Source: a virus | Virus record (IMG/VR): IMGVR_UViG_3300027917_000019 | Location: 1 to 64,000 of that record | Strand: one strand, 5' to 3' | DNA length: 64,000 bases | Position numbers and translations under genes: made by a program | In this document: positions 3,491-29,210 of the stretch, piece by piece | Layout of the letters: each line of letters opens with the position of its first letter | Position numbering within the stretch: the first letter of the stretch is position 1 | Notes under the pieces: generated by a model | What the model was told of the DNA's origin: nothing | Seen by the model: only the letters and a program-made list of their open reading frames with translations | The model's database searches: none

Positions 3491-3724
3491 TCAGAAAATT
3501 AATTCAGAATTTTCGTAGAAAAGGTTCAACTCTATATTGAAGAGGTAGTAGACCAGAATCCTGATAACACCCCTCTCATAGTTCGAAAGACACCCGTTGA
3601 GACTCACTAGCTGGTCAGCCTCTACTACTAGCTGTCTTTGAAGGTCATCTACGTTCAGGAGCAGACGACCATCGCAGCTATCTTGACCAAGCCAACCTTC
3701 ACAGTAGTATTCGTATTCAGTCAT
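3491..3724 (-). CDS. Tandem-array small protein, member 21 (77 aa)
   Basis: This is the last gene of the leftward operon. It carries the family pattern: N-terminal YEYYC..W, a central LVVE box, then a YERxV..LxxYLFN helix. It has the longest N-terminal spacer of the left-end members plus an extra tail. It shares 1 nt with the preceding gene. Function is unknown. Confidence 0.75.
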   Translation of the reverse strand: MTEYEYYCEGWLGQDSCDGRLLLNVDDLQRQLVVEADQLVSLNGCLSNYERGVIRILVYYLFNIELNLFYENSELIF

Positions 3725-3915
3725 TAGTGTCCACAGTCGACATCAAAGAGATAATCAATCAGAAATCGTAGAGCACTCCTTTCGTAGTTCTCACGATGCC
3801 GTTTATAGAATGCTACTTGAAAAGCCTCTACGACTAGCTGCTTTTCAAGAGTCTCGTACAGGTATCGCAGCTCATACCTCACGTAGCTTTCACAAAAGTA
3901 TTCGTAGTCACTCAT
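3724..3915 (-). CDS. Tandem-array small protein, member 20 (63 aa)
   Basis: It shows the full family pattern: YEYFC at the N-terminus, KQLVVEAFQ in the middle and YERSALRFL..YLFD at the C-terminus. It abuts member 19. Close in length and sequence to member 19, it is probably a recent duplicate. Function is unknown. Confidence 0.78.
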   Translation of the reverse strand: MSDYEYFCESYVRYELRYLYETLEKQLVVEAFQVAFYKRHRENYERSALRFLIDYLFDVDCGH

Positions 3916-4107
3916 TTAGATTCCGCAATCTATATCGAAGAGGTAGCGGATCAGAATCCGGATGACGTTTCTTTCAAAGTATCTGTGATACCTTTTAAGC
4001 GTGATCAGCTGCGAAGGCTCTATTACTAGTTTGTTTTGTAGGACTGGTATTAGGCGCTGAAGTGTGTAATCTGACCAAACTGCACAAAGGCGTTCATATT
4101 CAGTCAT
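3916..4107 (-). CDS. Tandem-array small protein, member 19 (63 aa)
   Basis: Family pattern YERLC..W, NKLVIEPSQL, FERNVIRILIRYLFD, ending DIDCGI (member 20 ends DVDCGH). It overlaps the end of member 18 by 8 nt, suggesting translational coupling. Function is unknown. Confidence 0.78.
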   Translation of the reverse strand: MTEYERLCAVWSDYTLQRLIPVLQNKLVIEPSQLITLKRYHRYFERNVIRILIRYLFDIDCGI

Positions 4108-4321
4108 GGTTCACTTCGACGGGGACGGGATAGTACTTTGGGAGTGTGGTATCGAAGAGATATTGAACTATGAGCCAGACGACGTTTCTCTCGTAACACT
4201 CAAGACCAAACTGAAAACGCATTAGCTGATCTTTCTCTATGACTAGTTGATTCTCGTTTTCAACTAATTCGTACTCTACCCAGTGTGCGCAGTAGAACTC
4301 GTAGTCAGTTTCCCATTTCAT
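4100..4321 (-). CDS. Tandem-array small protein, member 18 (73 aa)
   Basis: Family pattern YEFYC..W, NQLVIEKDQL, YERNVVWLIVQYLFD, followed by a proline-rich tail. The start has the best ribosome-binding site of the array (TAGGAG, 4 nt before ATG), so translation may re-enter here. Function is unknown. Confidence 0.8.
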   Translation of the reverse strand: MKWETDYEFYCAHWVEYELVENENQLVIEKDQLMRFQFGLECYERNVVWLIVQYLFDTTLPKYYPVPVEVNHD

Positions 4322-4342
4322 AGGACTCCTAAACGGGGTGGT

Positions 4343-4573
4343 TCATCCTCGATACTCATACCAGTCGCGTGCGCCCGTAGCTGATACTTTCACGTCCCAG
4401 AAGAATAGAACTAGGATATATATGACGTGAATCTCCCAGGACCTGATATCAGCGTAAAGCCTTCTTCGTTCTAGACCTTCTTCTAGGACTAGATTGTCCT
4501 TGAGAGCTTCTAGGTCTTGTTCTATCCAGTTTTCGTAGTAGGACTTATATTCGTAGTACTTATATTTAGACAT
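4343..4573 (-). CDS. Tandem-array small protein, member 17 (76 aa)
   Basis: A divergent member: tyrosine-rich N-terminus, DNLVLEEGLE box, WEIHVIYILVLFFWD helix (FWD in place of LFD). A 21-nt gap separates it from member 18. Function is unknown. Confidence 0.75.
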   Translation of the reverse strand: MSKYKYYEYKSYYENWIEQDLEALKDNLVLEEGLERRRLYADIRSWEIHVIYILVLFFWDVKVSATGARDWYEYRG

Positions 4574-4584
4574 AGATTACGACA

Positions 4585-4797
4585 TCAGCGTTGGCTTAAG
4601 TAGTCTGGGACGTTGAAAGCGCCGTATGCGTTGACGTCCCAGAGGTACATAACTAAGAGCCATATAACACCTCTCTCAAAGTTCCCGACGTTACTTACAA
4701 GCCATGCTACTTGATTAGCCTCTACAACTAGTTGGCCTTCAATGGCATTAAGAGGGTGGTTTACCCAACCTTCGCAGTGGTACTCGTATTCAGTCAT
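4585..4797 (-). CDS. Tandem-array small protein, member 16 (70 aa)
   Basis: MTEYEYHCEGW resembles the start of member 21. It has the GQLVVEANQV box and FERGVIWLLVMYLWD helix. It overlaps member 15 by 8 nt. Function is unknown. Confidence 0.78.
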   Translation of the reverse strand: MTEYEYHCEGWVNHPLNAIEGQLVVEANQVAWLVSNVGNFERGVIWLLVMYLWDVNAYGAFNVPDYLSQR

Positions 4798-5008
4798 TCT
4801 GATGATATTTCCAGTATTCGTCCAAAGTAACGTCTATATTTGCATTAAAGAGGTAGTAGATTAGAACGAGGAGTACGTGGAGTTCAAAGTTGTTAATATC
4901 ACTCGTAAGGAGTGCCCATTGACCAGGCTCTATTACTAGCTGTTTTTCAACGACTCTTACGTCGTCTCGTATCCAGCGTTGGTAATAAGGTTTGTATGTT
5001 AACGTCAT
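4790..5008 (-). CDS. Tandem-array small protein, member 15 (72 aa)
   Basis: MTLTYKPYYQRWI start, KQLVIEPGQW box, FELHVLLVLIYYLFN helix. It is closely similar to member 14 at the N-terminus (local duplication) and overlaps it by 4 nt. Function is unknown. Confidence 0.78.
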   Translation of the reverse strand: MTLTYKPYYQRWIRDDVRVVEKQLVIEPGQWALLTSDINNFELHVLLVLIYYLFNANIDVTLDEYWKYHQND

Positions 5009-5232
5009 GGTATGTTGTTCAAGAACTGGTCTTCAGTGTAGTCTGAAATGTATTCAGCAACTGTAATATCGAAGAGGTAAGAAAACAGACAGTAGAGGAC
5101 TTGGCGTTCAAAACACCTAATATCATGCCGGAGATCCGCTAGGTCGTCGTGCTCTATTACTAGACCACATTTGATTATATCTAAGTGGTTTTCTATCCAG
5201 CGTTGATGGTAAGATTTGTATGTTAGTGACAC
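5005..5232 (-). CDS. Tandem-array small protein, member 14 (75 aa)
   Basis: MSLTYKSYHQRWI start, CGLVIEHDDL box, FERQVLYCLFSYLFD helix, acidic tail. It overlaps member 15 by 4 nt. Function is unknown. Confidence 0.78.
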   Translation of the reverse strand: MSLTYKSYHQRWIENHLDIIKCGLVIEHDDLADLRHDIRCFERQVLYCLFSYLFDITVAEYISDYTEDQFLNNIP

Positions 5233-5233
5233 A

Positions 5234-5428
5234 CTACTTCCAAAGATCTAGGTCTATATCAAAGAGAAACCGAACAACTGTAAATAGGGAATGTTTTTCA
5301 AAGTGTTTCTTATAGGATTTGATTACGGCCAACTCCACGGCTTCTACTACTAATTCATCGGCAGCACTCCATACATACCTTTGTAAGAAGGCGAGGTAGT
5401 CTTTGTTGTAGCTGTAACGAATTATCAT
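5234..5428 (-). CDS. Tandem-array small protein, member 13 (64 aa)
   Basis: DELVVEAVEL box, then FEKHSLFTVVRFLFD. The N-terminus is YNKDYLAFLQRYVW. It is separated from member 14 by 1 nt. Function is unknown. Confidence 0.76.
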   Translation of the reverse strand: MIIRYSYNKDYLAFLQRYVWSAADELVVEAVELAVIKSYKKHFEKHSLFTVVRFLFDIDLDLWK

Positions 5429-5443
5429 ACAGTATCTCCAGAC

Positions 5444-5635
5444 TTATATAGCCGTATCGAAGAGATACCAAACAAGACAAAACAAGGTATATGCTTCATA
5501 GTTTTTCTTGTAGTACTTAATTGTAGTCAACAAGTCTGTTTCTATCACCAAACTGTTAGAAGCTAAAGCTGTTTCTACAAGCTCCTGTAATTGGTCCTGA
5601 TAATAAGAGCTGTACCTAATCGCGTTATCGTACAT
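5444..5635 (-). CDS. Tandem-array small protein, member 12 (63 aa)
   Basis: NSLVIETDLL box, YEAYTLFCLVWYLFD helix. It has the same length and layout as member 13. Function is unknown. Confidence 0.76.
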   Translation of the reverse strand: MYDNAIRYSSYYQDQLQELVETALASNSLVIETDLLTTIKYYKKNYEAYTLFCLVWYLFDTAI

Positions 5636-5677
5636 GTCTAAGGCGCCTAAAGGATTGGAATTTAATCGGCATGAGTA

Positions 5678-5863
5678 CTATTCTCGTAGAAAACACAAAA
5701 AGTTGACGAAAAGTCGCACGATAGCTTCGTTACGAAGAGATAGTTCTTGTTTGATCCGAGACAATGCTTCTTCCTCTATGACTAGGCGCCCCTGGATCTC
5801 CCTTACGGAGCTTTTAAGCCACCACTCGTAATAGTTGTAAGAAAAACTACGTAGACCAGCCAT
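5678..5863 (-). CDS. Tandem-array small protein, member 11 (61 aa)
   Basis: GRLVIEEEAL box, but the final helix reads AIVRLFVNFLCFLRE and so lacks the usual LFD. A 42-nt gap follows. Function is unknown. Confidence 0.72.
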   Translation of the reverse strand: MAGLRSFSYNYYEWWLKSSVREIQGRLVIEEEALSRIKQELSLRNEAIVRLFVNFLCFLRE

Positions 5864-5868
5864 ATCTT

Positions 5869-6093
5869 TCAGATTCGAATTCGAATTCGATTATCAAACA
5901 AAAACAATACGAGGACTTGTATAACGTGCTGACTAAGCCAACGTTGATATGTTTCGAGGTTGTCCAATTGCTGTTCTTCTACTACCAATCCAGGAGATAC
6001 TATTTCAATCTCCATTTTTAACCACCTCTGGTAAACAGGGTCATACTGAAGGGGGAGTATTGAGGACCGCATGCGCTCCAACATGTTGTTCAT
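5869..6093 (-). CDS. Tandem-array small protein, member 10 (74 aa)
   Basis: PGLVVEEQQLDNL box and HVIQVLVLFLFD helix. The C-terminus NRIRIRI is encoded by a short ATTCGA repeat (about 5874-5890), a likely slippage site. It is joined to member 9 by an ATGA overlap. Function is unknown. Confidence 0.75.
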   Translation of the reverse strand: MNNMLERMRSSILPLQYDPVYQRWLKMEIEIVSPGLVVEEQQLDNLETYQRWLSQHVIQVLVLFLFDNRIRIRI

Positions 6094-6290
6094 TCGAACC
6101 CCGCAGGAAAGTATATGTGTTCACCAAAACAGAAGGAGAATACAACCCCAACTACGTGAATTTCATACCAATCTTTGCAGCTGTAGATACTATCTAATTG
6201 CTGTTCTTCTATTACCAACTGCGTAGAAGCTTGGTCGAGGTGCGCTGCTAGTACTCTTTTGTAGACACGCATGTTGGAAAGATAGTCCAT
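6090..6290 (-). CDS. Tandem-array small protein, member 9 (66 aa)
   Basis: TQLVIEEQQLDSI box (nearly the same as member 10) and IHVVGVVFSFCFG helix. I chose the ATG at 6290, 1 nt after the member 8 stop. A longer frame starting at 6338 would overlap member 8 by 47 nt. Function is unknown. Confidence 0.7.
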   Translation of the reverse strand: MDYLSNMRVYKRVLAAHLDQASTQLVIEEQQLDSIYSCKDWYEIHVVGVVFSFCFGEHIYFPAGFE

Positions 6291-6291
6291 A

Positions 6292-6510
6292 TTACCAGTC
6301 TGCTCCATAAGGCAGTTCACAACCAAAGAGAATGGCAACTACTTTCTTGATGTAAGCTTTTTCCAAATCACAACGCAACCCTACCAACATCCTTACCGTC
6401 GCATCTTCTACAACCAGCTGATATGAACATTCTTCAATGATGCTCTCAATACTCCTTTCAAGAATATTGTTATACCAACGTATTTGGTCAATGTCTACCG
6501 TGCCCATCAT
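6292..6510 (-). CDS. Tandem-array small protein, member 8 (72 aa)
   Basis: YQLVVEDATV box and AYIKKVVAILFG helix. The ATG at 6510 forms an ATGA overlap with the member 7 stop and is preferred to the TTG at 6519. Function is unknown. Confidence 0.72.
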   Translation of the reverse strand: MMGTVDIDQIRWYNNILERSIESIIEECSYQLVVEDATVRMLVGLRCDLEKAYIKKVVAILFGCELPYGADW

Positions 6511-6755
6511 AGCCACCAAGGATGGCCAGTAAAGTCTATGTTAGTATCGTTGAATAGGTATCGGAACAACATCATTACCAAAAGCCCATTTACATGCATA
6601 AGTGCCGATTGTATGTCAACAAGGTCTTTTTCTTCTACTGCTAGATAATCTTCTACCCTCTGCATTAGAAGGTTAAGATTCTCGACCTCTGTCTCCATTC
6701 GATACTGAATGATGCATACATCTATGTAAAAAGTAGCGTTGTTGTAGTCACTCAT
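6507..6755 (-). CDS. Tandem-array small protein, member 7 (82 aa)
   Basis: DYLAVEEKDL box and LLVMMLFRYLFN helix. The start MSDYNNATF at 6755 follows a GAGAAG ribosome-binding site, so the upstream TTG at 6764 is rejected. It has a longer N-terminal region than its relatives. Function is unknown. Confidence 0.74.
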   Translation of the reverse strand: MSDYNNATFYIDVCIIQYRMETEVENLNLLMQRVEDYLAVEEKDLVDIQSALMHVNGLLVMMLFRYLFNDTNIDFTGHPWWL

Positions 6756-6764
6756 ACTTCTCAA

Positions 6765-6944
6765 CTAAGGGCAAGTATCAAAGAGGTAGTAAATCAGAAC
6801 GCGAATGATATGTTTTTCAAAATTCTCTTTCTCTCTTTCAATAATCCTCAAAAGCCTCTTTTCTACTACCAGTGAGTCTTTGACTGCCTGCACGTCCTGA
6901 TTTAGCCAGTACTGATAGTGTGGGGAATATACCTCGTATTTCAT
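6765..6944 (-). CDS. Tandem-array small protein, member 6 (59 aa)
   Basis: A short gene that is easily missed. It begins MKYEVYSPHYQYW, has DSLVVEKRLL as its box and ends NFEKHIIRVLIYYLFDTCP, all typical of the family. Its ATG forms an ATGA overlap with the stop of member 5, which strongly supports translation. It is the smallest intact member. Confidence 0.78.
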   Translation of the reverse strand: MKYEVYSPHYQYWLNQDVQAVKDSLVVEKRLLRIIEREKENFEKHIIRVLIYYLFDTCP

Positions 6945-7153
6945 GAGTTTTCATCCAAGGTGCACAGGAAGTCTGCAACGCTCTGCACCCACCACTCCAT
7001 AGCGTGCTTGTGGAGGTTTCTGAGGCGTCTAACATCGGGTTGCTCTAGGACCAGCTGCTGACCGTTTAGGAGGCGGTGCGTGGCTTTTAGGGCCCTTGTT
7101 TCGTGAACTAGAGCCCACCGCACTGCAGTGCTGGCTGGGTCATAATCAGTCAT
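6941..7153 (-). CDS. Tandem-array small protein, member 5 (70 aa)
   Basis: QQLVLEQPDVRRL box, WWVQSVADFLCTLDE end. More divergent, with no LFD motif. It overlaps member 4 by 8 nt and member 6 by 4 nt. Function is unknown. Confidence 0.72.
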   Translation of the reverse strand: MTDYDPASTAVRWALVHETRALKATHRLLNGQQLVLEQPDVRRLRNLHKHAMEWWVQSVADFLCTLDENS

Positions 7154-7340
7154 TTAGTATTTTCTCAAGAAATTCAACAAAGATATATACCCACTCAGTA
7201 GCAATTGTTTCTCTACAATCCTCTATAAATTTCACTTGGCCCTGTTCCACGACAAGCACTGCTTTGAGTAGCACATGCCAGGTCTCTATTATCACTTGAT
7301 AACTGTGTATGATTTGTTTTCGTCGTGAGGAATAGTACAT
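7146..7340 (-). CDS. Tandem-array small protein, member 4 (64 aa)
   Basis: AVLVVEQGQVKFI box, TEWVYIFVEFLEKIL helix. It shares 1 nt with member 3. Function is unknown. Confidence 0.72.
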   Translation of the reverse strand: MYYSSRRKQIIHSYQVIIETWHVLLKAVLVVEQGQVKFIEDCRETIATEWVYIFVEFLEKILND

Positions 7341-7573
7341 TACTCTTCTCTAAGGTACTCAAGAACTCCTTGAAAAAGCGCAACCCATCCACGATTTATT
7401 AGTTCTTTATTAAACCGTAGGTCATTTATGTCAAGATGCTCAAGCGTCAATCGCCTACCGTTTTTTAACCTAGAAATATACTGAACGAGTTGGTCTTCTC
7501 TATCCGTCACCCAGTCAACGTTTCCAAACACAGGATGACCTCGATATACACCAATCTGTCGAAGTGTGCCCAC
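7340..7573 (-). CDS. Tandem-array small protein, member 3 (77 aa, GTG start)
   Basis: A distant member: RRLTLEHLDINDL takes the place of the LVVE box and GWVALFQGVLEYLREE the final helix. The GTG at 7573 has a weak ribosome-binding site, so the start is uncertain. Function is unknown. Confidence 0.62.
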   Translation of the reverse strand: MGTLRQIGVYRGHPVFGNVDWVTDREDQLVQYISRLKNGRRLTLEHLDINDLRFNKELINRGWVALFQGVLEYLREE

Positions 7574-7586
7574 AGCAATACCATAA

Positions 7587-7620
7587 GGCCGAATTGGGTA
7601 AGTGCAATCCCAATTCGGCC
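7587..7620. terminator. Perfect 12-bp hairpin inside the array
   Basis: GGCCGAATTGGG, loop TAAGTGCAAT, CCCAATTCGGCC, between members 2 and 3. No T-run follows on the minus strand, so it may be a processing or attenuation structure instead of a simple terminator. Confidence 0.6.
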
Positions 7621-7646
7621 CTTACATATACCCTCATAGGTATAGG

Positions 7647-7892
7647 CTACAGAAACAACCACTTAAGTAGATAGTACACTACTTGTTGTTCACCGAGTTT
7701 CGCATGTTCTGTACAAACACCTAGTGTTTCTAAATCAACATGCTCTGCAACCAGCTTATCATCGTAAGCTTCTACTCGCTCTTTAAGCGTAAGCTTCCTA
7801 GCACGCCAGGTAGTAATCCAGTATGACAACGAGTCGTCGAGCAGCGCATGGAGAATGGTTTGGCCATGCTTAGTGACGATAACCTTACTCAT
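7647..7892 (-). CDS. Tandem-array small protein, member 2 (81 aa)
   Basis: Extended basic N-terminus, then DKLVAEHVDLETL and QQVVYYLLKWLFL. It overlaps member 1 by 8 nt. Function is unknown. Confidence 0.72.
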   Translation of the reverse strand: MSKVIVTKHGQTILHALLDDSLSYWITTWRARKLTLKERVEAYDDKLVAEHVDLETLGVCTEHAKLGEQQVVYYLLKWLFL

Positions 7893-8097
7893 CTAAGCTC
7901 CACTCTAATATTTCCTGCAGCGCATATATCCACCGCTGATTAATGCACTCTTTTCCGTTCTCAAGCACCAAAAGATCATAGCCTTCTGTAACAAGCTGAT
8001 TTTCTACACGCACTACATTATCATGTAAATCTTGTGTGTAGTTAAGGGCCCATCGGGTCCAATAGCTTATCCATGCTAATCTAGGTTCCCTTTTCAC
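7885..8097 (-). CDS. Tandem-array small protein, member 1 (70 aa, GTG start)
   Basis: The first family member in transcription order. It has the NQLVTEGYDLLVL box and WIYALQEILEWSLDE end. The final EWSL recalls the WSLL tails of nearby proteins but is followed by DE. Function is unknown. Confidence 0.7.
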   Translation of the reverse strand: MKREPRLAWISYWTRWALNYTQDLHDNVVRVENQLVTEGYDLLVLENGKECINQRWIYALQEILEWSLDE

Positions 8098-8183: not shown

Positions 8184-8389
8184 AGCTTGGTAGAAAGCCT
8201 GCGATTGATATTCAGTGCAACAATACCCTCCAACACTGCAACAGTCGCAGACTCATATTCCTCATGAACCTGATAGTTCGTCTTGTCATCGATAGCTACA
8301 AGACCAATCTTCCCGTTTTCCTTCTCGATGATGTGTAGTGTGAAACTAGAAAGTGTTTGGTCTTCGCGCTTCTCTTCAGACTTTGTCAT
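8180..8389 (-). CDS. Hypothetical protein, 69 aa
   Basis: The ATG at 8389 overlaps the upstream stop as ATGA, so this start is preferred to 8401. It is charged at the N-terminus (MTKSEEKRED) and then beta-rich. It does not belong to the LVVE family. Function is unknown. Confidence 0.65.
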   Translation of the reverse strand: MTKSEEKREDQTLSSFTLHIIEKENGKIGLVAIDDKTNYQVHEEYESATVAVLEGIVALNINRRLSTKL

Positions 8390-8583
8390 AGTAGATTCCA
8401 TTCTCCGGCCTCCTCGTCGATGTATGGTCTAGTGTCCTTTGGAGGGACTTGAACCCATTTATATCCAAGCGCCGTTTTTTCAGTCTTGTGGTACGTAATA
8501 TTGAAAGTACTGGTGTTATAGTGATCAGGATTTCCCCAAGCTGCCGCGCTGTAATCAACACCGCCAATATAAAGGTCACTCAC
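8386..8583 (-). CDS. Hypothetical protein with C-terminal EWNLL tail, 65 aa
   Basis: The GTG at 8583 overlaps the upstream TGA (GTGA), preferred to the GTG at 8595. The body is beta-rich. It ends DEEAGEWNLL, a variant of the (E/D)WSLL tail found on four other proteins in this window. Function is unknown. Confidence 0.66.
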   Translation of the reverse strand: MSDLYIGGVDYSAAAWGNPDHYNTSTFNITYHKTEKTALGYKWVQVPPKDTRPYIDEEAGEWNLL

Positions 8584-8921
8584 AACAAGCTCCACTCTCC
8601 CTCTTCACTAGGGTCGTACAATTCAAGCTCTGTCAGGTCTACAAACGTAATAACCCCACGAGCTTCTACATTTACCCCAAAGTAGTTGCTGTCCACAGTA
8701 TATCCAGATCCATGGTCAGATACAGACGCTGTGTGCTTCTTAGCAACCAAGCGCTCTTCAGATTTCGTCCCATCCGGCCAGCGAACTTTTACTATCTGCC
8801 CCGCAATCAAGGTGATACCACGAGAACGAGACGCAGTACCTGCAGTTGATAGGCCCTCGCCGCTATAGGCGTAATAGATGTAGCCCCAATCATCGAACCT
8901 TTCAATCTTCCTATAACTCAC
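8580..8921 (-). CDS. Hypothetical protein with C-terminal EWSLL tail, 113 aa
   Basis: Beta-rich, with IVKVRWPDG and a glycine- and serine-rich centre, possibly a small SH3-like barrel. It ends PSEEGEWSLL. It is coupled by a 4-nt overlap to the next gene, which carries the related tail. Function is unknown. Confidence 0.68.
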   Translation of the reverse strand: MSYRKIERFDDWGYIYYAYSGEGLSTAGTASRSRGITLIAGQIVKVRWPDGTKSEERLVAKKHTASVSDHGSGYTVDSNYFGVNVEARGVITFVDLTELELYDPSEEGEWSLL

Positions 8922-8924
8922 ATG

Positions 8925-9119
8925 TCACCCACAGCCGGCGCCTGTCTGGCGAGGCTCCTCTTTCTCCTCGGACGGGTGGTCTACCGTAGCGCGTAATTCG
9001 TTGACAGCAGCAGTCAGGTCTTCAATCAGTACCTGTAAAATGACAAGGTCAGCCTTAACGTTGTTCAATTCGGCTCGCATGCACGTCAAGTCTAGTTGTG
9101 TAAAGTCCATCGCCCGCAT
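8925..9119 (-). CDS. Coiled-coil hypothetical protein, 64 aa
   Basis: First gene of the leftward operon. The ATG at 9119 follows an AGGAAGG ribosome-binding site; the longer frame from 9182 is less likely. Leucine and valine heptads run through the middle, followed by an acidic tail and a terminal GAGCG. Function is unknown. Confidence 0.6.
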   Translation of the reverse strand: MRAMDFTQLDLTCMRAELNNVKADLVILQVLIEDLTAAVNELRATVDHPSEEKEEPRQTGAGCG

Positions 9120-9489
9120 CGTAAGCACCTTCCTGCACGTCGTCAAGAGGTTATGAAAGGGATCGTTTTGAAAACGAAGCATTCAAGGTGTAAACTAACA
9201 TCAGAATAGACCCTTAAATAAGTACTTGTCTGTGAATAGATCACCATTTCTAGCTTGTTTTCACAAAACGAGGTGTTAGAATGGTGCTGAAGACTGCTCA
9301 GAATGGCCCTATTTGGTGTTGACAGGGGTTATGGTAGTGCTTATTTGGTACCTAACTAGGTATTACGAGTACGTGGAGAGATCCGGGCTGGTCTGACGGC
9401 CTGAAATTATGCCCCGTGGGTATACCTATCTTGTATGCGGGCCGTTGTCCGGACCAAAATAGGGACAGACTTTAAAAGAGGGACAGTAC
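9120..9489. other. Divergent intergenic control region
   Basis: This lies between the leftward small-gene operon and the rightward genes. A sigma70-like site TTGACA-N17-TATTTG lies at 9319-9347 and a weaker TTGTTT-N16-TAGAAT near 9258-9285. I see no gene here and no clear leftward promoter. Confidence 0.5.
9319..9347 (+). promoter_or_regulatory. Sigma70-type promoter
   Basis: TTGACA, 17 bp, TATTTG. It faces the rightward genes beginning at 9490. The -10 box is imperfect. Confidence 0.5.
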
Positions 9490-9855
9490 ATGAGTGAGGA
9501 CCAAGACATTTGTCGAATAGTTCTACATCTGATTGAACCTGATGAAACGTTAGAGTTCGCGGTGGTTAGATCTGAAGTAGTACACTTTCTATCTGTGGTT
9601 AACAACCTGAACACAGTGTTCGTAAACATAAATGGAACAGGTATTCCAATCCGCCGCATCGCCTCCTATAATGAAGAAGACATGAACGGTGAGAGTGTTT
9701 ACAATAAGGCATTTATCTACACATCCCTGCCTATTCAAACAGTCGTACTTCCCCCAGCAACAGGATCCCCCCCATCGTTACCAAACGTCACAACAAGCGA
9801 GGACTGGTATCTGCACGCAGGTGACATAGGTCCCCTAAAGAAGGAAGGCTTCTGA
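9490..9855 (+). CDS. Hypothetical protein, 121 aa
   Basis: I do not recognise it. It starts MSEDQDICR, with mixed alpha/beta composition and a proline-rich segment near residues 85-95. It is first in a run of rightward small genes and its stop overlaps the next start (TGATG). Confidence 0.65.
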   Translation: MSEDQDICRIVLHLIEPDETLEFAVVRSEVVHFLSVVNNLNTVFVNINGTGIPIRRIASYNEEDMNGESVYNKAFIYTSLPIQTVVLPPATGSPPSLPNVTTSEDWYLHAGDIGPLKKEGF

Positions 9856-10157
9856 TGGCTATTCGAGCAACGACACATTCACCCCGTAGGACTAATAAGC
9901 CTACCTCTAAGGATGTCGATGTAGTAAAGATGATCGTAACTCTACACTCTGGTGCTGAGTTTGAGGCTGTCGGCGGCCGTGACGACGCTATTGATTTTCA
10001 CAGGCGTTTCAAAAAGTGGGTAGACGGTCAAGTTCACAAAACAGATAACCACAAGATTGTATTCTTTGGTGGTATTTACTTTGCCGCGAATGCTGTCGCT
10101 GTATATTCTGCTGAAGATATGGATGGGAAGAAGGTAGACCTTGGCCCCGCACATTGA
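9855..10157 (+). CDS. Hypothetical protein, 100 aa
   Basis: A basic N-terminus (about 20 residues) precedes a compact alpha/beta region. The start overlaps the previous stop. The segment IASYNEEDMNGESV in the upstream protein resembles VAVYSAEDMDGKKV here, so the two may be distant paralogues. Function is unknown. Confidence 0.62.
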   Translation: MAIRATTHSPRRTNKPTSKDVDVVKMIVTLHSGAEFEAVGGRDDAIDFHRRFKKWVDGQVHKTDNHKIVFFGGIYFAANAVAVYSAEDMDGKKVDLGPAH

Positions 10158-10548
10158 TGTGCCTGAAGGTAAAGACGTAATAGACGTTTTCCACAAGTGG
10201 CACGCAAAGCTTGACAGTGAAAACAGAGAGATAATCTTCTCTGTATCTACACAATATTATTTGGAAGAAGGACAGGCTGATCTTCTTGACCCAGAAGATG
10301 AGACGAAGTGGACCAAGGTTTTGGTACTACCTTTTCCTAAGGATAATGTTGTAACCGAGAAAGGTGAGATGTTAGTCGGCGCGTCTGTTCCTACTTTCTT
10401 TGACACAGAACAGCTCAAAAAACGGTTCATCCCTATAGACGACTTTGTACAAGTCGTCTATAAGATGGTTGAACAGATAAACGCCGATTTAGAAAACGCA
10501 ATGCTATTGCAGCAAATGGAAGATAACGCTGAGTGGAGTCTTCTGTAG
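10141..10548 (+). CDS. Hypothetical protein with C-terminal EWSLL tail, 135 aa (TTG start)
   Basis: The TTG at 10141 has AAGAAGG spaced 6 nt before it. GTG at 10159 is the alternative. It is acidic, with a C-terminal helix ending MEDNAEWSLL. Function is unknown. Confidence 0.62.
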   Translation: MAPHIDVPEGKDVIDVFHKWHAKLDSENREIIFSVSTQYYLEEGQADLLDPEDETKWTKVLVLPFPKDNVVTEKGEMLVGASVPTFFDTEQLKKRFIPIDDFVQVVYKMVEQINADLENAMLLQQMEDNAEWSLL

Positions 10549-10562
10549 TTATTTGTTAGGGG

Positions 10563-10591
10563 TTGACAAACAGAAATGTTTGACGTGGATA
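10563..10591 (+). promoter_or_regulatory. Promoter TTGACA-N17-TGGATA
   Basis: The predicted transcription start falls within a few bases of the ATG at 10596, so the message may be leaderless or nearly so. Confidence 0.5.
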
Positions 10592-10595
10592 CCTA

Positions 10596-11030
10596 ATGAT
10601 AATAGTCAATGATTTCATATTTATCAAAGTGTTTCCAGACTTATTCTGGGCACAGTGTGGAGATGGTTGGTTACTGCTTGGGGCTGAGTCATTAGCACAA
10701 GACCCCCACATCCTAGCAGCGGTGACGTATGATTCTGAAGTTAAAACAGGAAGGTTTGTACATCTGGTAAAGGCAGACATGCGTCTGAAGGCTGACAAGA
10801 TTTCTGGCGATGACGTGTACTATTCAACAGGTCAAACAAGCCCTCGTGCTCTTATGACAACATATCCAGACTTTGTGTACATAGTACAAGCCGATAACAG
10901 TGATGATCTAAAAGGGCACATTCTAGAACTACTATTCAGGAGTGATGTTCCTACTCCTAGTGTACCTTCTGAAAAAGTAGACCGTCGCCCAAGTTTTGAA
11001 GATCTTGAGGGAGATTGGTCCCTTCTGTGA
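10596..11030 (+). CDS. Hypothetical protein with C-terminal DWSLL tail, 144 aa
   Basis: Begins MIIVNDFIFIKVF, mixed alpha/beta. The last residues are EDLEGDWSLL. No ribosome-binding site precedes the ATG, consistent with a leaderless transcript from the promoter at 10563. Function is unknown. Confidence 0.62.
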   Translation: MIIVNDFIFIKVFPDLFWAQCGDGWLLLGAESLAQDPHILAAVTYDSEVKTGRFVHLVKADMRLKADKISGDDVYYSTGQTSPRALMTTYPDFVYIVQADNSDDLKGHILELLFRSDVPTPSVPSEKVDRRPSFEDLEGDWSLL

Positions 11031-11556
11031 TCTTTCTTCACTTTCTTTCCTCACACCCATTGACAACCCTTGGTATTACCCCCAATTTAGATCAGACGGT
11101 TTAAGGGTAAGGCTTAATTCTCAGACTAAAGAGTTAGTAGTTATGTACGGTGAAGATATAGATGCTATTGACGTAGTAGACTGTGTATTCGAGTACTATG
11201 ATAAATACGGTAAGCGTATTACATTTGACGACCTAATAGAACTAGAAGACGACCAGAAATACGGTATAGTCGGTGTGTGGGTAAACTGGGTAGGAGAAGA
11301 AGTTATTACTACCACTTGGAATGGTGTACCTGTCTATCCTATAGAGGAGAAGGAAGGTCCTGACCCTCTCATCTTTGAGACTGTCTGTCATCGGGAAGAT
11401 CGGTACCGAAATATCATTCGTAGGTACTCTACACTGGATAGGGCTATAGAGGGGCATCGAACCGCTGTTTTGCAAGCAGGTGGTGATCCTGATTCAAATT
11501 ACGACAACATGCCTGACTGGATGCCTCCGTACTTCCTAGACTCGGATTTTTACTGA
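10996..11556 (+). CDS. Hypothetical protein of the W(D/N)W-GE family, up to 186 aa
   Basis: The start is uncertain: TTG at 10996 would overlap the previous gene by 35 nt, and the next ATG is at 11143. The C-terminal half (VGVWVNWVGEEVITT, later EGH, GGDPD, PDWMPPY) is homologous to the next two genes, which are shorter. Function is unknown. Confidence 0.6.
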   Translation: MKILREIGPFCDLSSLSFLTPIDNPWYYPQFRSDGLRVRLNSQTKELVVMYGEDIDAIDVVDCVFEYYDKYGKRITFDDLIELEDDQKYGIVGVWVNWVGEEVITTTWNGVPVYPIEEKEGPDPLIFETVCHREDRYRNIIRRYSTLDRAIEGHRTAVLQAGGDPDSNYDNMPDWMPPYFLDSDFY

Positions 11557-11557
11557 G

Positions 11558-11833
11558 ATGACTAACACATATGTTGCTCCCTCAGGGTATATACTTGTAA
11601 AAGCTTGGGTAGACTGGCTTGGAGAGACTGTGGTTGAAACTTCAAGGGCACGTGAAAAAGGAAGGTATATTACGTTTGTGTCTACAAAGAACGGGCCGAT
11701 AGGCCCTGTTGCTTTCTATGACACGCTTGAAGACGCCGAAAAGGGGCATGACCTTGAAGTTAAATCTCATGGTGGTGACCCCGAAGGTTTTTACCCTCGT
11801 CCAGATTGGTATATCAAACGAGTGTGTGGGTGA
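11558..11833 (+). CDS. W(D/N)W-GE family protein, 91 aa
   Basis: It carries VKAWVDWLGETVVET near the start and GDPEGFYPRPDWYIK at the end. It is a tandem paralogue of the next gene: 11605-11631 and 11915-11941 are identical DNA. Tryptophan-rich and probably beta. Function is unknown. Confidence 0.65.
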   Translation: MTNTYVAPSGYILVKAWVDWLGETVVETSRAREKGRYITFVSTKNGPIGPVAFYDTLEDAEKGHDLEVKSHGGDPEGFYPRPDWYIKRVCG

Positions 11834-11837
11834 ACTA

Positions 11838-12191
11838 GTGCCTTATTTTGATATCAACACTCTAGATATTCATAAGGACTATCTGTCTCCTACAGGTTAC
11901 CAAGTTATAAACGTTTGGGTAGACTGGCTTGGAGAGACTGTAATTGAGACTGTCTTTGATAGTGCTTCGAATGCCAGGATTGAGTACACTTCTGAGTATA
12001 CTCCTACCTTGTTTTACACGTATGTGGCTACACATAAGGGGGCTATAACTTCTCTTAATGATTACTTGACTGTGCAGGAAGCTAAGGACGGGCATGTTGC
12101 TTTAGTTAGGGCTCATGGAGGCAATCCTGAAGGTTTTTACCCTCGTCCAGATTGGTACATCAAAAGTGTCGCTAACATCGTTCGTTTTTAA
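11838..12191 (+). CDS. W(D/N)W-GE family protein, 117 aa (GTG start)
   Basis: Second copy of the family, with NVWVDWLGETVIET and GNPEGFYPRPDWYIK plus an insertion of about 25 residues in the middle. The GTG at 11838 follows the previous stop by 4 nt. A frame open from 11709 is only the extension of this one. Confidence 0.62.
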   Translation: MPYFDINTLDIHKDYLSPTGYQVINVWVDWLGETVIETVFDSASNARIEYTSEYTPTLFYTYVATHKGAITSLNDYLTVQEAKDGHVALVRAHGGNPEGFYPRPDWYIKSVANIVRF

Positions 12192-12372
12192 GGGTTTGGT
12201 AATATTGCTGGTAGGTTGTGGCTCTACCATCACTATGACCCTTCCTAACTTGCAGAAGGGTACTTGTACTGGTGACGAGAATGTTCGCTACTGTGTTGAA
12301 GCAAATGGTACCTCTTGGTTGTGCACCCGCTCTGGTACGTGGTGGGAGTGTACGGTGACCCCTAATGACTAA
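12166..12372 (+). CDS. Putative small lipoprotein, about 68 aa
   Basis: A hydrophobic stretch ends in a lipobox (LVILLVGC), followed by a cysteine-rich domain (CTGDENVRYC, WLC, WWEC), suggesting a lipid-anchored, disulfide-stabilised surface protein. The start codon is uncertain (GTG 12166 proposed). It overlaps its neighbours at both ends. Function is unknown. Confidence 0.5.
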   Translation: MSLTSFVFKGLVILLVGCGSTITMTLPNLQKGTCTGDENVRYCVEANGTSWLCTRSGTWWECTVTPND

Positions 12373-12601
12373 CGCGGAAATTCGTGAATGGTTTACGCCT
12401 GCAGAGGATTGTGTTCCTAACAGACATGCGGTCATCACTTATGAGACAGACTGCTGGTGTGTTCTAGTAGAAGAGTACATTGTTTCCACAAAGACTCCTC
12501 GGAAGATTGTACACAGTGCTCATGGGTATGGGTCAACCGTTTGGGAGGCACTAGTTAATGCTATAGCGGAGTGGGGCCGCACTAGGTGTGGTGCCATTTA
12601 G
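12365..12601 (+). CDS. Hypothetical protein, 78 aa
   Basis: ATG at 12365 overlaps the end of the preceding lipoprotein frame. A conserved-looking C-terminal segment (GSTVWEALVNAIAEWG) resembles the domain found in small phage proteins that act on one substrate sample, but I cannot assign it. It is last in the operon, before a terminator. Confidence 0.6.
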   Translation: MTNAEIREWFTPAEDCVPNRHAVITYETDCWCVLVEEYIVSTKTPRKIVHSAHGYGSTVWEALVNAIAEWGRTRCGAI

Positions 12602-12620
12602 CTCAATGTTGTCAAAATAA

Positions 12621-12640
12621 AACCCCGCGCTTGCGGGGTT
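12621..12640. terminator. Hairpin terminator
   Basis: AACCCCGC-GCTT-GCGGGGTT, 8-bp stem, A-rich before and AT-rich after. It ends the 9490-12601 gene run. Confidence 0.7.
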
Positions 12641-12951
12641 TACAAATTAAAGACACTGATTTGTGCGTTACGTGGTTTGTTATATATAAGAACTGCTTTG
12701 AACTATCTCAGATAGCTGGTGCTGCTAACAGATAGCTCGATATTTGAAAATTATCAATACACCTAATGCGACACATTCCGGGCTTGTGCTAGATTTATCG
12801 GTACCAGGGTTATACATGGTAGTTGCAACTATACGCTCCACAGAGCAGATAGTTGCAAATAATATTGTTTTTATTTAGTTATGTTTTTTCCACAATACCG
12901 TTATACCTTCGCTGCGCGTTGTTATGTACAATCTCTGTTATCAGGATAGGT
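12641..12951. other. Gene-free stretch with a repeated TAGTTGCAA motif
   Basis: The palindrome TAGTTGCAACTA at 12820-12831 is followed by TAGTTGCAA at 12850-12858, and AGATAGCT occurs twice near 12709-12736. These could be operators for the promoter at 12952. I see no gene here. Confidence 0.45.
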
Positions 12952-12980
12952 TTGACAAGTGTGATGTTCTCAGTTACACT
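12952..12980 (+). promoter_or_regulatory. Promoter TTGACA-N17-TACACT
   Basis: Near-consensus. The -10 box ends 5 nt before the GTG start of the metalloprotease, so the transcript would be leaderless. Confidence 0.7.
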
Positions 12981-12985
12981 AAAGT

Positions 12986-13657
12986 GTGTCCAGATGGTTG
13001 AATTTCTTAGGATTTCTGGTATTGGCCCTGTTTATCGAGGCATGCATACCAACATCCTTGAAACTAGATAGTGGTCCCATGCTGGTCCCTATAACGCAAG
13101 CAGGTTACCACTGGACTCCTGACCGCTTCCCTATTCCAGTATATGTACATCCGCAGATGGACCCTATCCGCAAGTTGGCTGTATTACTAGCCATAGACCA
13201 GTGGAACGAGTCTGTAGGTGGTGACGTGTTTGAGTACATAGACGCTCCTCCCAACTGGCCCATGTTTGAAGAGAACGGAGCGTTTACAGCATTGGGATTT
13301 GTTAGTGTGGAGGAAGGGCTTGTTGGTGTTGACCCAGATATGAACGTACAGCGTAATGCGTGGGCAGCTGTTTCTCTCAGACCTGGAAGGTACGAACTTC
13401 TAGGTGAGATTCATGGGGCTAGGGTTATGATTGGTACACACGTATCCGGTCTAGAAGACGCCGCTCGGATCACATTCCATGAGCTTGGGCACTGTTTAGG
13501 CTTGGCACATGATGGAAATGATCGTACAAGCATCATGTACTATAGCGCCACTCTTTCTATGAGTCAGCATCTACAGGAAGAGGATTTGGCCTATGTTAGA
13601 CAACAAGTGGGGACTTGGACTGCTGTCGAGGTCTTCCGTGAGTCACTCCAACTCTGA
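12986..13657 (+). CDS. Metzincin-type zinc metalloprotease lipoprotein, 223 aa
   Basis: A lipoprotein signal peptide with a hydrophobic core and cysteine at residue 20 (LFIEAC-IP) precedes a matrixin-like domain. The zinc site HELGHCLGLAH lies near residues 166-176, with a downstream Met-turn (SIMYY). This predicts an extracellular, membrane-anchored endopeptidase of the M10 type. The GTG start sits directly at the predicted transcription start. Its target is unknown; it may modify the host surface during infection. A second lipoprotein protease lies at 29278-29988. Confidence 0.8.
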   Translation: MSRWLNFLGFLVLALFIEACIPTSLKLDSGPMLVPITQAGYHWTPDRFPIPVYVHPQMDPIRKLAVLLAIDQWNESVGGDVFEYIDAPPNWPMFEENGAFTALGFVSVEEGLVGVDPDMNVQRNAWAAVSLRPGRYELLGEIHGARVMIGTHVSGLEDAARITFHELGHCLGLAHDGNDRTSIMYYSATLSMSQHLQEEDLAYVRQQVGTWTAVEVFRESLQL

Positions 13658-13853
13658 GTTATGGCATTTGCTGTTTGATCTTCAAATTCTCGTAAACGGG
13701 CATTGTGACGTTACAACTACTCCAGAATACGATGATGCAGTAGAAGCTTTTGATCCAGAACATGATGAAAGATACAGAGCGGCCATGTTGAAGGCTCGGG
13801 AGGCTTGTCCAGCAACGATTGACGATGAGGAGGGAGATTGGAGCCTCCTCTGA
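13638..13853 (+). CDS. Hypothetical protein with C-terminal DWSLL tail, 71 aa
   Basis: The GTG at 13638 has GAGG at the right spacing and overlaps the protease end by 20 nt; a longer frame from 13593 is possible. It is acidic and helical, ending DDEEGDWSLL, the most conserved version of the shared tail. Function is unknown. Confidence 0.62.
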   Translation: MSHSNSELWHLLFDLQILVNGHCDVTTTPEYDDAVEAFDPEHDERYRAAMLKAREACPATIDDEEGDWSLL

Positions 13854-27262: not shown

Positions 27263-27335
27263 GCTGTCGAAGCTAAACAGGCGAAGCACCTGGTTCTTAC
27301 CCAGGCAATAGGGGGTTCGAGTCCCTCCGGCAGTA
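27263..27335 (+). tRNA. tRNA-Lys(CTT)
   Basis: Acceptor GCTGTCG/CGGCAGT, loop TTCTTAC, canonical T-loop TTCGAGT. No CCA is encoded. Confidence 0.88.
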
Positions 27336-27336
27336 C

Positions 27337-27412
27337 TCGGGATTAGCTCAGCGGTAGAGCGACGGTCTCTGACACCGTGTCAGCGGGGGTTCGAATCCCT
27401 CATCCCGGACCA
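27337..27412 (+). tRNA. tRNA-Gln(CTG)
   Basis: Acceptor TCGGGAT/ATCCCGG, loop CTCTGAC, encoded CCA. Confidence 0.9.
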
Positions 27413-27413
27413 T

Positions 27414-27489
27414 TGTAGGGTAGGCTAACTGGGAAGCCGCCTGACTGTTACTCAGGAAGATGCAGGTTCGAAGCCTGCCCCTACAGCCA
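27414..27489 (+). tRNA. tRNA-Asn(GTT), copy 1
   Basis: Acceptor TGTAGGG/CCCTACA, loop CTGTTAC, encoded CCA. Confidence 0.9.
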
Positions 27490-27492
27490 CCC

Positions 27493-27521
27493 TTGACAGG
27501 GTTTGTGATCGTGACTATGTT
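27493..27521 (+). promoter_or_regulatory. Promoter TTGACA-N17-TATGTT
   Basis: An internal promoter that would feed the segment with aberrant tRNAs and Y-like RNAs. Confidence 0.6.
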
Positions 27522-27610
27522 GCGATACTTGACAACTCAATAGGTAGATTTTCGTGCTTCCTTAGGAAGTACTGTCAGTGCGGCCCAATTACGGTCGACG
27601 ACTGACTTAT

Positions 27611-27733
27611 GCCTGGGTAGTATAAAGTCCAGCCGTGCCCAATGTCCGGTTATACGCCGATTGAAGCGGATGGTGAGAAAGTACACTTGAACTTAGAATT
27701 CAAGAGGTGGTGGTTTGAATCCATCCCCGGGAG
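27611..27733 (+). tRNA. Aberrant tRNA-like RNA (Leu/Ser-like)
   Basis: The 3' part has a T-arm GGTGG-TTTGAAT-CCATC and acceptor strand CCCGGGA that pairs imperfectly with GCCTGGG at 27611. The D-loop is expanded. A stem CTTGAA/TTCAAG with loop CTTAGAA looks like a Leu(TAG) anticodon arm but sits where a variable arm would be. About 120 nt in all. Probably not a normal decoder. Confidence 0.4.
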
Positions 27734-27762
27734 ACACTTTTGAGAGTCTTTAGGCTCTCTAT

Positions 27763-27833
27763 ACCGAAGCAGCTCTGGCAGAGCACCCACACATGGTGGG
27801 AGGTCGGTGGTTTAAATCCATCCTTCGGTGCCA
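27763..27833 (+). tRNA. Aberrant tRNA-like RNA (CAT-containing loop)
   Basis: Acceptor ACCGAAG/CTTCGGT and D-arm are good and CCA is encoded. The anticodon stem CCCAC/GTGGG encloses only 5 nt (ACATG) and the T-loop is TTTAAAT. Decoding is doubtful. Confidence 0.5.
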
Positions 27834-27837
27834 TTAT

Positions 27838-27921
27838 GGGACAGTAGCTCAGGATAGAGCGCTTGTATCCGTCATCGAGCGTGACAAGAGGTCGGAGAGT
27901 CGACACCTCCCTGTCCCCCCA
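27838..27921 (+). tRNA. Aberrant tRNA-like RNA with 17-nt anticodon loop
   Basis: Acceptor GGGACAG/CTGTCCC, normal D-arm and encoded CCA, but CTTGT/ACAAG encloses 17 nt and the T-loop is GTCGACA with an A:C pair. No anticodon can be assigned. Confidence 0.5.
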
Positions 27922-27925
27922 TTTT

Positions 27926-27990
27926 TGGTGAATGCAACAGCGATTACATCAAACCATACTGAACAAATATCACTGTTATTTTTGTCACCG
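27926..27990 (+). ncRNA. Y-RNA-like element A
   Basis: Outer stem TGGTGA/TCACCG, inner stem ACAG-C-GAT / ATC-A-CTGT, loop starting TACATC, and 3' internal loop TATTTTTG. It lies 4 nt after a tRNA-like CCA and 5 nt before tRNA-Trp. Elements B, C and D share this layout with different stem sequences that preserve pairing. The proposed partner is the Ro60 protein at 38873. Confidence 0.65.
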
Positions 27991-27995
27991 CTTTT

Positions 27996-28069
27996 ACGTC
28001 GTAGAGTCATGGCGACCAAACTGCCTCCAAAACAGTTCTGAGAGGGTTCGATTCCTTCACGGCGTGCCG
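27996..28069 (+). tRNA. tRNA-Trp(CCA)
   Basis: Acceptor ACGTCGT/ACGGCGT, anticodon loop CTCCAAA, C:A pair at positions 31-39, short D-loop, canonical T-loop. The 3' end is encoded as CCG. Confidence 0.78.
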
Positions 28070-28070
28070 A

Positions 28071-28205
28071 CAGTTTAGAGAATGCCTGAGTTGGGATTAC
28101 ATCGCTTGAACACGACGATTGCAGGTTCGATTCCTGTCCACTCCACCATATGGGGTGGCCTATGGTAGGTAGAAAAACATCTCTCTCGCTTTTGTCTCTA
28201 AACTG
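28071..28205 (+). ncRNA. yrlA-like: YrlA-type Y RNA with permuted tRNA-like module (element D)
   Basis: Outer stem CAGTTTAGAGA/TCTCTAAACTG (11 bp), internal loop with TCGCTTTTG on the 3' side, inner stem GGGAT/ATCTC, then TACATC. Inside, in permuted tRNA order, are a T-arm (GCAGG-TTCGATT-CCTGT, 28121-28137), acceptor strand CCACTCC, ACCA, TAT, acceptor strand GGGGTGG (28152-28158) and a D-arm-like CCTA-TGG-TAGG. YrlA RNAs have this design, with the Ro-binding stem in place of the anticodon arm. It lies 1 nt after tRNA-Trp and 5 nt before tRNA-Arg. Confidence 0.78.
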
Positions 28206-28210
28206 CATTT

Positions 28211-28286
28211 GCTCCGGTAGCTCAGAGGAAGAGCACAACGCTACGAACGTTGGATTGCGGGGGTTCGAATCCCTCTCGGAGTGCCA
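28211..28286 (+). tRNA. tRNA-Arg(ACG)
   Basis: Acceptor GCTCCGG/TCGGAGT, loop CTACGAA, encoded CCA directly followed by element B. Confidence 0.9.
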
Positions 28287-28370
28287 TGGTGGATGCGATT
28301 TGTGATTACATCTCTGAGTAAGTGATCTTGAGCTACGGCTCATGCAAACATCACAGTCATTTTGCCACCA
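28287..28370 (+). ncRNA. Y-RNA-like element B
   Basis: Outer stem TGGTGG/CCACCA and inner stem TGTGAT/ATCACA, both compensated relative to A and C. The loop starts TACATC and holds a hairpin TGAGC-TACG-GCTCA. The 3' internal loop is GTCATTTTG. It begins at the base after the upstream CCA and ends 5 nt before the next tRNA-like gene. Confidence 0.65.
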
Positions 28371-28375
28371 ACTAT

Positions 28376-28442
28376 TACGCGGTAGACTAAATGCAAGTTG
28401 CCCTAAGGGGAGATGGTGGGTCGCATCCATCCCGCGTAGCCA
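28376..28442 (+). tRNA. Mini tRNA-like RNA without a normal anticodon arm
   Basis: Perfect acceptor TACGCGG/CCGCGTA with encoded CCA, D-stem GACT/AGTT, T-arm GGTGG-GTCGCAT-CCATC. Only 14 nt separate the D and T arms, room for a CCC-TAA-GGG stub. At 67 nt it cannot decode normally. Confidence 0.55.
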
Positions 28443-28443
28443 A

Positions 28444-28518
28444 GCTTCGGTAGCTCAGTGGTAGAGCGCTTGCCTGAAGAGCAGGGCGTCGGGGGTTCAA
28501 TTCCCTCTCGAAGCACCA
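28444..28518 (+). tRNA. tRNA-Phe(GAA)
   Basis: Acceptor GCTTCGG/TCGAAGC, loop CTGAAGA, encoded CCA directly followed by element C. Confidence 0.9.
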
Positions 28519-28590
28519 CGGTGAATAGATAAATGATTACATCGCTGTTTTGGTTAACTGCTATCCTACGTCATTGTCGTTTTGTCACCG
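28519..28590 (+). ncRNA. Y-RNA-like element C
   Basis: Outer stem CGGTGA/TCACCG, inner stem AATGAT/GTCATT, loop starting TACATC, 3' internal loop GTCGTTTTG. It begins at the base after the tRNA-Phe CCA and ends 3 nt before tRNA-Asp. Confidence 0.65.
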
Positions 28591-28593
28591 TCT

Positions 28594-28667
28594 GCTACGT
28601 TGTGCATCTGGGATGCAGATCGGCTGTCTACCGGTTGAGATGGGTTCGATTCCCATACGTAGCGCCA
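28594..28667 (+). tRNA. tRNA-Asp(GTC)
   Basis: Acceptor GCTACGT/ACGTAGC, loop CTGTCTA, short 5-nt D-loop, encoded CCA. Confidence 0.85.
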
Positions 28668-28743
28668 CGGAATATAGCTGAGGCTGGTTTAGCACCACGT
28701 TAGGGGCGTGGAGACATCGGTTCGAATCCGGTTATTCCGACCA
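28668..28743 (+). tRNA. tRNA-Pro(AGG)
   Basis: Acceptor CGGAATA/TATTCCG, loop TTAGGGG, encoded CCA. Its last two bases are also the first two of the next tRNA. Confidence 0.88.
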
Positions 28744-28817
28744 GGGTATAGCTGAGGTTGGTTTAGCACCGCGTTCGGGGCGCGGAGACGGGGGTTCGAA
28801 TCCCTCTACCTTGACCA
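28742..28817 (+). tRNA. tRNA-Pro(CGG)
   Basis: Acceptor CAGGGTA/TACCTTG, loop TTCGGGG, encoded CCA. It overlaps the preceding tRNA by 2 nt. Confidence 0.88.
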
Positions 28818-28818
28818 T

Positions 28819-28876
28819 GGGTATAATGGCTCGGCCCTAAAATGAGCACGCAGCCACGGGCGCATCGTGGCACTTG
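28819..28876 (+). pseudogene. 5'-half tRNA remnant
   Basis: GGGTATA acceptor strand, D-arm GCTC/GAGC and a hairpin GCCACG-GGCGCAT-CGTGGC, then no T-arm. It abuts the Tyr tRNA, whose 3' acceptor strand could pair with it. Confidence 0.4.
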
Positions 28877-28964
28877 GGGTGCTTCGCACGTTGGCAGTGC
28901 AGCCTGTCTGTAAAACAGGTCGGGACATAGATCCTAGGGGTTTCGACTACCTCAGTACCCACCA
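28877..28964 (+). tRNA. tRNA-Tyr(GTA)
   Basis: Acceptor GGGTGCT/AGTACCC, loop CTGTAAA, long variable arm, T-arm GGGGT-TTCGACT-ACCTC, encoded CCA. Confidence 0.85.
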
Positions 28965-28965
28965 T

Positions 28966-29040
28966 TCACAGGTAACTCAGTGGTAGAGTGTCTGGCTGTT
29001 AACCAGGTCGTCGCGGGTTCGATTCCTGCCCTGTGAGCCA
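28966..29040 (+). tRNA. tRNA-Asn(GTT), copy 2
   Basis: Acceptor TCACAGG/CCTGTGA, loop CTGTTAA, encoded CCA. Confidence 0.9.
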
Positions 29041-29041
29041 T

Positions 29042-29116: not shown

Positions 29117-29117
29117 C

Positions 29118-29203: not shown

Positions 29204-29210
29204 AATTATG

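Follow-up and report, generated by a model that had tools for sequence, protein, structure and literature searches.

Several unrelated proteins of a virus represented by an IMG/VR record (IMGVR_UViG_3300027917_000019, 165,819 bp; hereafter G000) end in nearly the same five residues, and we infer that this shared peptide, (E/D)W(S/D/N)(L/I/V)(L/F), serves in docking onto a receptor encoded by the phage itself. The window examined here comprises the first 64 kb of that record, for which a first-pass annotation had listed five open reading frames (ORFs) with such tails on dissimilar bodies. All five were present and ended as described. Two lie on the minus strand, at 8386–8583 (a small protein, tail EWNLL, terminus ...YIDEEAGEWNLL) and 8580–8921 (113 residues, EWSLL, ...YDPSEEGEWSLL), and three on the plus strand, at 10141–10548 (135 residues, EWSLL with a TAG stop, ...QQMEDNAEWSLL), 10596–11030 (144 residues, DWSLL, ...SFEDLEGDWSLL) and 13638–13853 (a small protein, DWSLL, ...TIDDEEGDWSLL), the start codons of the first and the last being uncertain (8583 or, for the longest ORF, 8595; 13638 or, for the longest ORF, 13593). 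The dissimilarity of the bodies was upheld as well. BLASTP comparisons between the five proteins aligned mainly the last 7–16 residues, with one match of 26 residues (E about 0.02), and since the alignments were mostly confined to the last residues, the five bodies have no detectable homology. No Pfam or PHROG family was matched by any of the five (0/5), no relatives of the 10596–11030 protein were found among isolate phages or in IMG/VR, and a structure model of that protein alone was unreliable (predicted local distance difference test score, pLDDT, of 35). The gene at 13638–13853 stands directly upstream of a polynucleotide-kinase-like gene (13925) and a class II ribonucleotide reductase (RNR) gene (14920).

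The recurrence of the tail in G000 exceeds chance. The strict motif [DE]W[DSN][LIV][LF] was found at the C-termini of 7 of the 274 predicted proteins and nowhere internally in 52,804 residues, while the looser [DE]W[DSN][LIVF], allowed up to two residues from the end, occurred at 10 C-termini against 0.05 expected. Identical C-terminal 4-mers formed 6 pairs against 0.49 expected, a number reached in none of 5000 simulation rounds in which random internal 4-mers were drawn from the proteins, and WSLL alone made up the last four residues of four proteins. The search of the whole record also showed that the tail recurs beyond the window and that the earlier count was too low, as two additional strict copies end at 123997 and 125518. 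The former belongs to a WGR-domain protein (123641–123997; PF05406, E 1.7e-14) ending EDDWDVL, and the latter to a 35-residue ORF (125411–125518) ending SGEWDVL. Variant tails were present on the product of a gene between the primase and a CobS-like ATPase (104584–105015, AEWDFD) and on a basic protein (149056–149436, GEWDLS). Other matches to a loose form of the pattern were excluded, among them DWRLL at 57875, which ends a short antisense ORF, and the DWMVV end, at 63873, of a 712-residue tail-fibre-like protein, whose residues differ.

The codons of the five window tails are varied. EWNLL is written GAA TGG AAT CTA CTA TGA (8386–8403, minus strand) and the two EWSLL tails GAG TGG AGC TTG TTG TGA (8580–8597, minus strand, overlapping the start of the next gene) and GAG TGG AGT CTT CTG TAG (10531–10548, plus strand). 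The two DWSLL tails read GAT TGG TCC CTT CTG TGA (11013–11030, plus strand, with TCC for Ser instead of AGN) and GAT TGG AGC CTC CTC TGA (13836–13853, plus strand). Ser is thus encoded by AGC, AGT or TCC and Leu by several codons, so that it is the peptide that is shared, not the DNA.

A search with the G000 polymerase yielded 13 related IMG/VR contigs, one of them 169 kb long (G001). Homologues without the tail had been named beforehand as evidence against a common signal; instead, orthologues in these relatives keep the tail at the amino acid level. The protein encoded at 104584–105015, between the primase and the CobS-like ATPase, was tailed in all relatives found, with EWDIL, DWDLS or AEWDFD. 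Its family ended in EWDIL in G002, G004, G009, G012, G014, G015, G016 and G017 and in DWDLS in G001, and EWDIL was retained although the codons vary across the relatives. An AlphaFold2 model of this family, the sole one that could be modelled, predicted an ordered body of alpha/beta type with 17 disordered residues at its end (131–147, pLDDT <50); no solved structure related to the body was found at E<=0.001. The WGR family ended in DWDVL in G000 and in EWDLT, YEWDIL and YEWDLF in three relatives, and the WGR protein of an unrelated phage ended in ESWGTW. At the polynucleotide kinase–RNR locus of G001, the site at which the window has its DWSLL gene, the tailed proteins ended in YEWDLL and TEWSLLD and had non-homologous bodies, so that the tail persists while the bodies are replaced.

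Tails shared by several proteins of one genome were also observed in other phages, which were picked through homology to tail-bearing proteins, not randomly. A degenerate scan of IMG/VR for EWDIL followed by a stop picked up two replication proteins with the tail, both from unrelated phages: the exonuclease (phrog_69) of G023, a phage of 71.8 kb, and the primase (phrog_1156) of an 87.6-kb phage related to those of Brevundimonas. In G023, five or more C-termini are of this type, its exonuclease, primase and DNA methyltransferase ending in [DE]WDI[LI]. In the cultured Brevundimonas phage Poludnitsa, the primase ends in DEWDIL, the exonuclease in DAFDIL, the small terminase in DGFDIL and four hypothetical proteins in DEFDIL, TAFDIL, DEFDI or DPFDL; its gp2.5-like single-stranded DNA-binding protein (SSB) ends in ADEFQL, related to these DE[FW]DIL-type tails, and its A-family polymerase (phrog_17) has nothing tail-like. 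Other phages carry other peptides: DDEV, EDEV or EEEV on the primase, exonuclease, SSB, small terminase and two small proteins of Enc34; DPLA on the primase, SSB and one hypothetical protein of RcRudolph; and DDPTA on the SSB and one hypothetical protein of RDJL3, with DPLA on others. Within-genome sharing of tails was significant in G000, Poludnitsa, G023, RDJL3 and Enc34 (0/5000 each) and among the annotated genes of RcRudolph (1/5000), and was not significant in a 119.6-kb phage-like control contig. Homologous primases and exonucleases of Bradleyvirinae had no common tail, and such tails are therefore not universal. The carriers with a known function act on DNA in replication or packaging.

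The scan of IMG/VR for [DE]WSLL gave 13 matches, none of which ended a long ORF, and thus revealed no other phage with a WSLL tail; a second pattern gave no matches. A DWDLF match in a bacterial contig of the metagenome-assembled genome (MAG) OFTM19 was rejected as a chance occurrence in a short antisense ORF. Proteins of about 50 residues ending in AYEWDIL or AQEWDIL were seen in other viruses (L094, L112, L113, L115, L119, L121, L138 and L144). About ten AYEWDIL-type proteins from other contigs were not considered further, as they probably belong to one family in which the last helix has this ending. The gp43 from one phage carrying such a protein has no such tail, and a B-family polymerase occurs in some of these phages.

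The first-pass annotation had read the shared tail as a docking or localisation signal, and the data give this good support, as the tail is independent of the bodies, is conserved in orthologues and is predicted to be disordered in the family modelled. Its two candidate partners fared differently. A dedicated phage receptor fits better than the sliding clamp, because the tails of other phages differ from genome to genome; constancy of the peptide inside one phage, together with its variation from one phage to the next, is best explained by a receptor that varies likewise and hence belongs to the phage. We suggest that the tail would be a C-terminal short linear docking motif, borne on disordered and often acidic ends of unrelated phage proteins, through which all its carriers may plug into a single receptor, encoded by the phage and located at the replicating genome. 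That this lineage-specific motif docks on some replisome hub of the phage's own seems to us an evenly balanced proposition. The likeliest receptor might be the phage's own DNA polymerase (111867–114065), an A-family enzyme (phrog_17, E 9e-119) that ends in NWASKENI and is itself tail-free; as a first choice it is put forward tentatively, by analogy with T7, whose tails dock on gp5, and because the A-family polymerase is tail-free both here and in Poludnitsa.

In T7, basic patches on the A-family polymerase gp5 are the docking sites for the acidic tails of gp2.5, an SSB, and gp4, the primase-helicase (PMC12593628; PMC5686142). The two tails end in DEDGDF and SNDTDF, respectively, with DF in common. 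G000 resembles T7 in that unrelated proteins of one phage share an acidic C-terminal end containing an aromatic residue and in that the A-family polymerase lacks it; moreover, a gp2.5-like SSB and the primase are tailed in other phages (Poludnitsa, Enc34 and RcRudolph). In G000, in contrast, the SSB and primase are untailed, and the carriers are mostly unknown accessory proteins, the WGR protein and small ORFs. A further likeness is to the bacterial SSB, whose C-terminal tip is of the DDDIPF type: this tip is also acidic with a hydrophobic end and recruits many partners, but it has another sequence and sits on one hub protein, whereas the tail described here sits on many different clients.

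Several observations weigh against docking on a phage replisome. The G000 SSB (ending AALREKMLAAVS), primase (EQWKMAF) and helicase bear no tail, so that the client set of T7 is not reproduced, and the T7 tails are longer and Phe-terminated, whereas the G000 motif is short and specific (E/D-W-S/D-L-L). Most carriers in the window belong to no known family. G001 has no identical C-terminal 4-mers, and its signal thus depends on the looser motif. The tails of the other phages, finally, may represent separate convergence.

Among the other explanations, recruitment of the carriers to the host beta sliding clamp through a divergent clamp-binding motif (CBM), one of the two partners proposed by the first-pass annotation, is unlikely, yet it stays in consideration because Gln, to judge from the delta subunit, is not strictly indispensable. 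The CBM consensus is Q-phi-x-[L/M]-[F/L]; such motifs may be C-terminal and are frequently flanked by acidic residues, and the natural CBM of delta, AMSLF, lacks Gln (PMC11139829). EWDLF and EWDIL are similar to QLDLF, the tail shares with the bacterial QL[SD]LF the order of a hydrophobic residue, S/D, L and L/F as well as a possible C-terminal position, and the exonuclease, primase, methyltransferase and DNA-binding WGR protein resemble the set of a clamp tool belt. The tail differs, however, in having Asp or Glu for Gln, Trp at position 2 and a permitted Ser, Thr or Asp end. Position 1 is Asp or Glu, never Gln, throughout the tails of G000 and its relatives, and a Gln-to-Glu change strongly lowers CBM affinity (PMC11139829). 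The last two positions are LL, LF, IL or VL in most tails and FD, LS, LT or LLD in others; several members have Ser, Thr or Asp at position 5. In addition, tails such as DDEV and DPLA are unlike any CBM despite the conserved pocket of host clamps, and G000 yielded no clamp gene.

A hub outside the replisome, such as a MoxR/CobS-type ATPase with a VWA partner, a compartment scaffold or a packaging component, for which the tail would be a localisation tag, appears improbable. A CobS-like ATPase and VWA proteins adjoin tailed genes in the replication cluster and small terminases are tailed in Poludnitsa and Enc34, but Enc34 and RcRudolph, which also share tails, showed no CobS or VWA genes in their annotated portions.

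We regard a T4-like arrangement, in which the phage would encode a divergent clamp or another processivity factor as the receptor, as less probable still. T4 gp43, gp33 and gp55 bind gp45 through an interchangeable C-terminal motif (PMC2988020); gp43 ends in SLDFLFG and gp55 in SLDFLYEAND. In both phages, one motif of hydrophobic-acidic character (SLDFLF and SLDFLY in T4) stands at the C-termini of unrelated proteins, but G000 has no detected clamp gene and its polymerase lacks the motif. Neither PF02767 nor PF02916 matched in the phage or its relatives, and the scanned PHROGs included no clamp; for PF02916, a model of little power, this is weak evidence, as it was also without matches in phages with a B-family polymerase. 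Genes adjacent to the polymerase were considered as clamp candidates, and their products, a VWA-like protein (unannotated phrog_7371) and a cysteine-rich protein, are not clamps by sequence.

A C-terminal degron or anti-degron controlling the turnover of early proteins is very improbable. Hydrophobic C-termini can act as protease signals and many carriers are small, early-type proteins; against this, other phages carry their tails on proteins required in large amounts, among them SSB, primase, exonuclease and small terminase, and the tails match no known ssrA-like tag, the phage's own transfer-messenger RNA (tmRNA) tag being ADNAALPLAA. Mimicry of the C-terminal tail of the class Ib reductase subunit R2, which we take to be DWDF, with docking on the large subunit, can hardly be credited: several carriers adjoin the phage RNR, but this enzyme is of class II and has no R2 partner, the carriers elsewhere are replication proteins, and a literature search for the peptide found no support. 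Equally negligible is a DNA-level origin, either as the ribosome-binding site (TGGAG or TGGGA) of an overlapping downstream gene or through 3' ends shared by gene conversion, since the tails at 8580, 123980 and 125501 do overlap the next start codon, some of them containing GGAG or GGGA, but no gene begins within 40 bases of those at 10531 and 13836, Ser at 11013 is TCC, and orthologues keep the residues while the codons change. A Shine-Dalgarno or overlapping-start reading was accordingly ruled out for most copies by codon variation and by the copies without a nearby start.

Many tailed phages may bear a lineage-specific C-terminal replisome tag on the SSB, primase, exonuclease and small terminase as well as on a shifting assortment of small accessory proteins; this tag would co-evolve with a phage-encoded receptor, and new small genes in this phage would join by gaining a five-residue tail. 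We consider this wider pattern plausible, at somewhat less than even likelihood. For replication proteins, shared tails have been known as single instances, in T7 and in T4, and the general pattern may be described beyond the open-access literature. Were tails routinely uniform within and different between phages, the last five residues would reveal which genes plug into the replication machine, the co-evolving receptor surface could be mapped and blocked, and the recruitment of small unrelated early proteins without a common fold would be explained.

Other features of the record were noted. A 70-residue protein ending ...ILEWSLDE (7885–8097, minus strand) is a possible degenerate relative of the tailed proteins; it was not counted, as part of a different small-protein array. 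About 20 consecutive similar small ORFs (59–85 residues; YYxxWL...LVVE...LFxYLFD) form a tandem family at 3491–8097 on the minus strand. Three neighboring ORFs at 10996–12191 have a repeated domain in common (about 32% identity, ...GGxPExxYxxxPDW), and a secreted or lipoprotein-like metalloprotease with HELGHCLGLAH is encoded at 12986–13657, with distant homologues (32%) in the relatives. The replication cluster of G000 contains genes for a CobS-like AAA ATPase, a CobT-like protein and a VWA-like protein (105460–108692 and 114065–114775). With respect to the host, a scan of a genome collection yielded nothing beyond a phage-like contig from a deltaproteobacterial MAG; L069 (JAJFLM010000335.1), a contig of this kind, carries the nearest RNR found in the collection (56%), with an apparent intein-like insertion. 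The window further encodes 38 tRNAs and a tmRNA (27263–40595), among them a tRNA with the amber-reading CUA anticodon (32246–32318), labelled Pyl by ARAGORN, and the TAG stop is rare but used, closing 13 of the 157 predicted genes of at least 100 residues as well as the EWSLL gene that ends at 10548.

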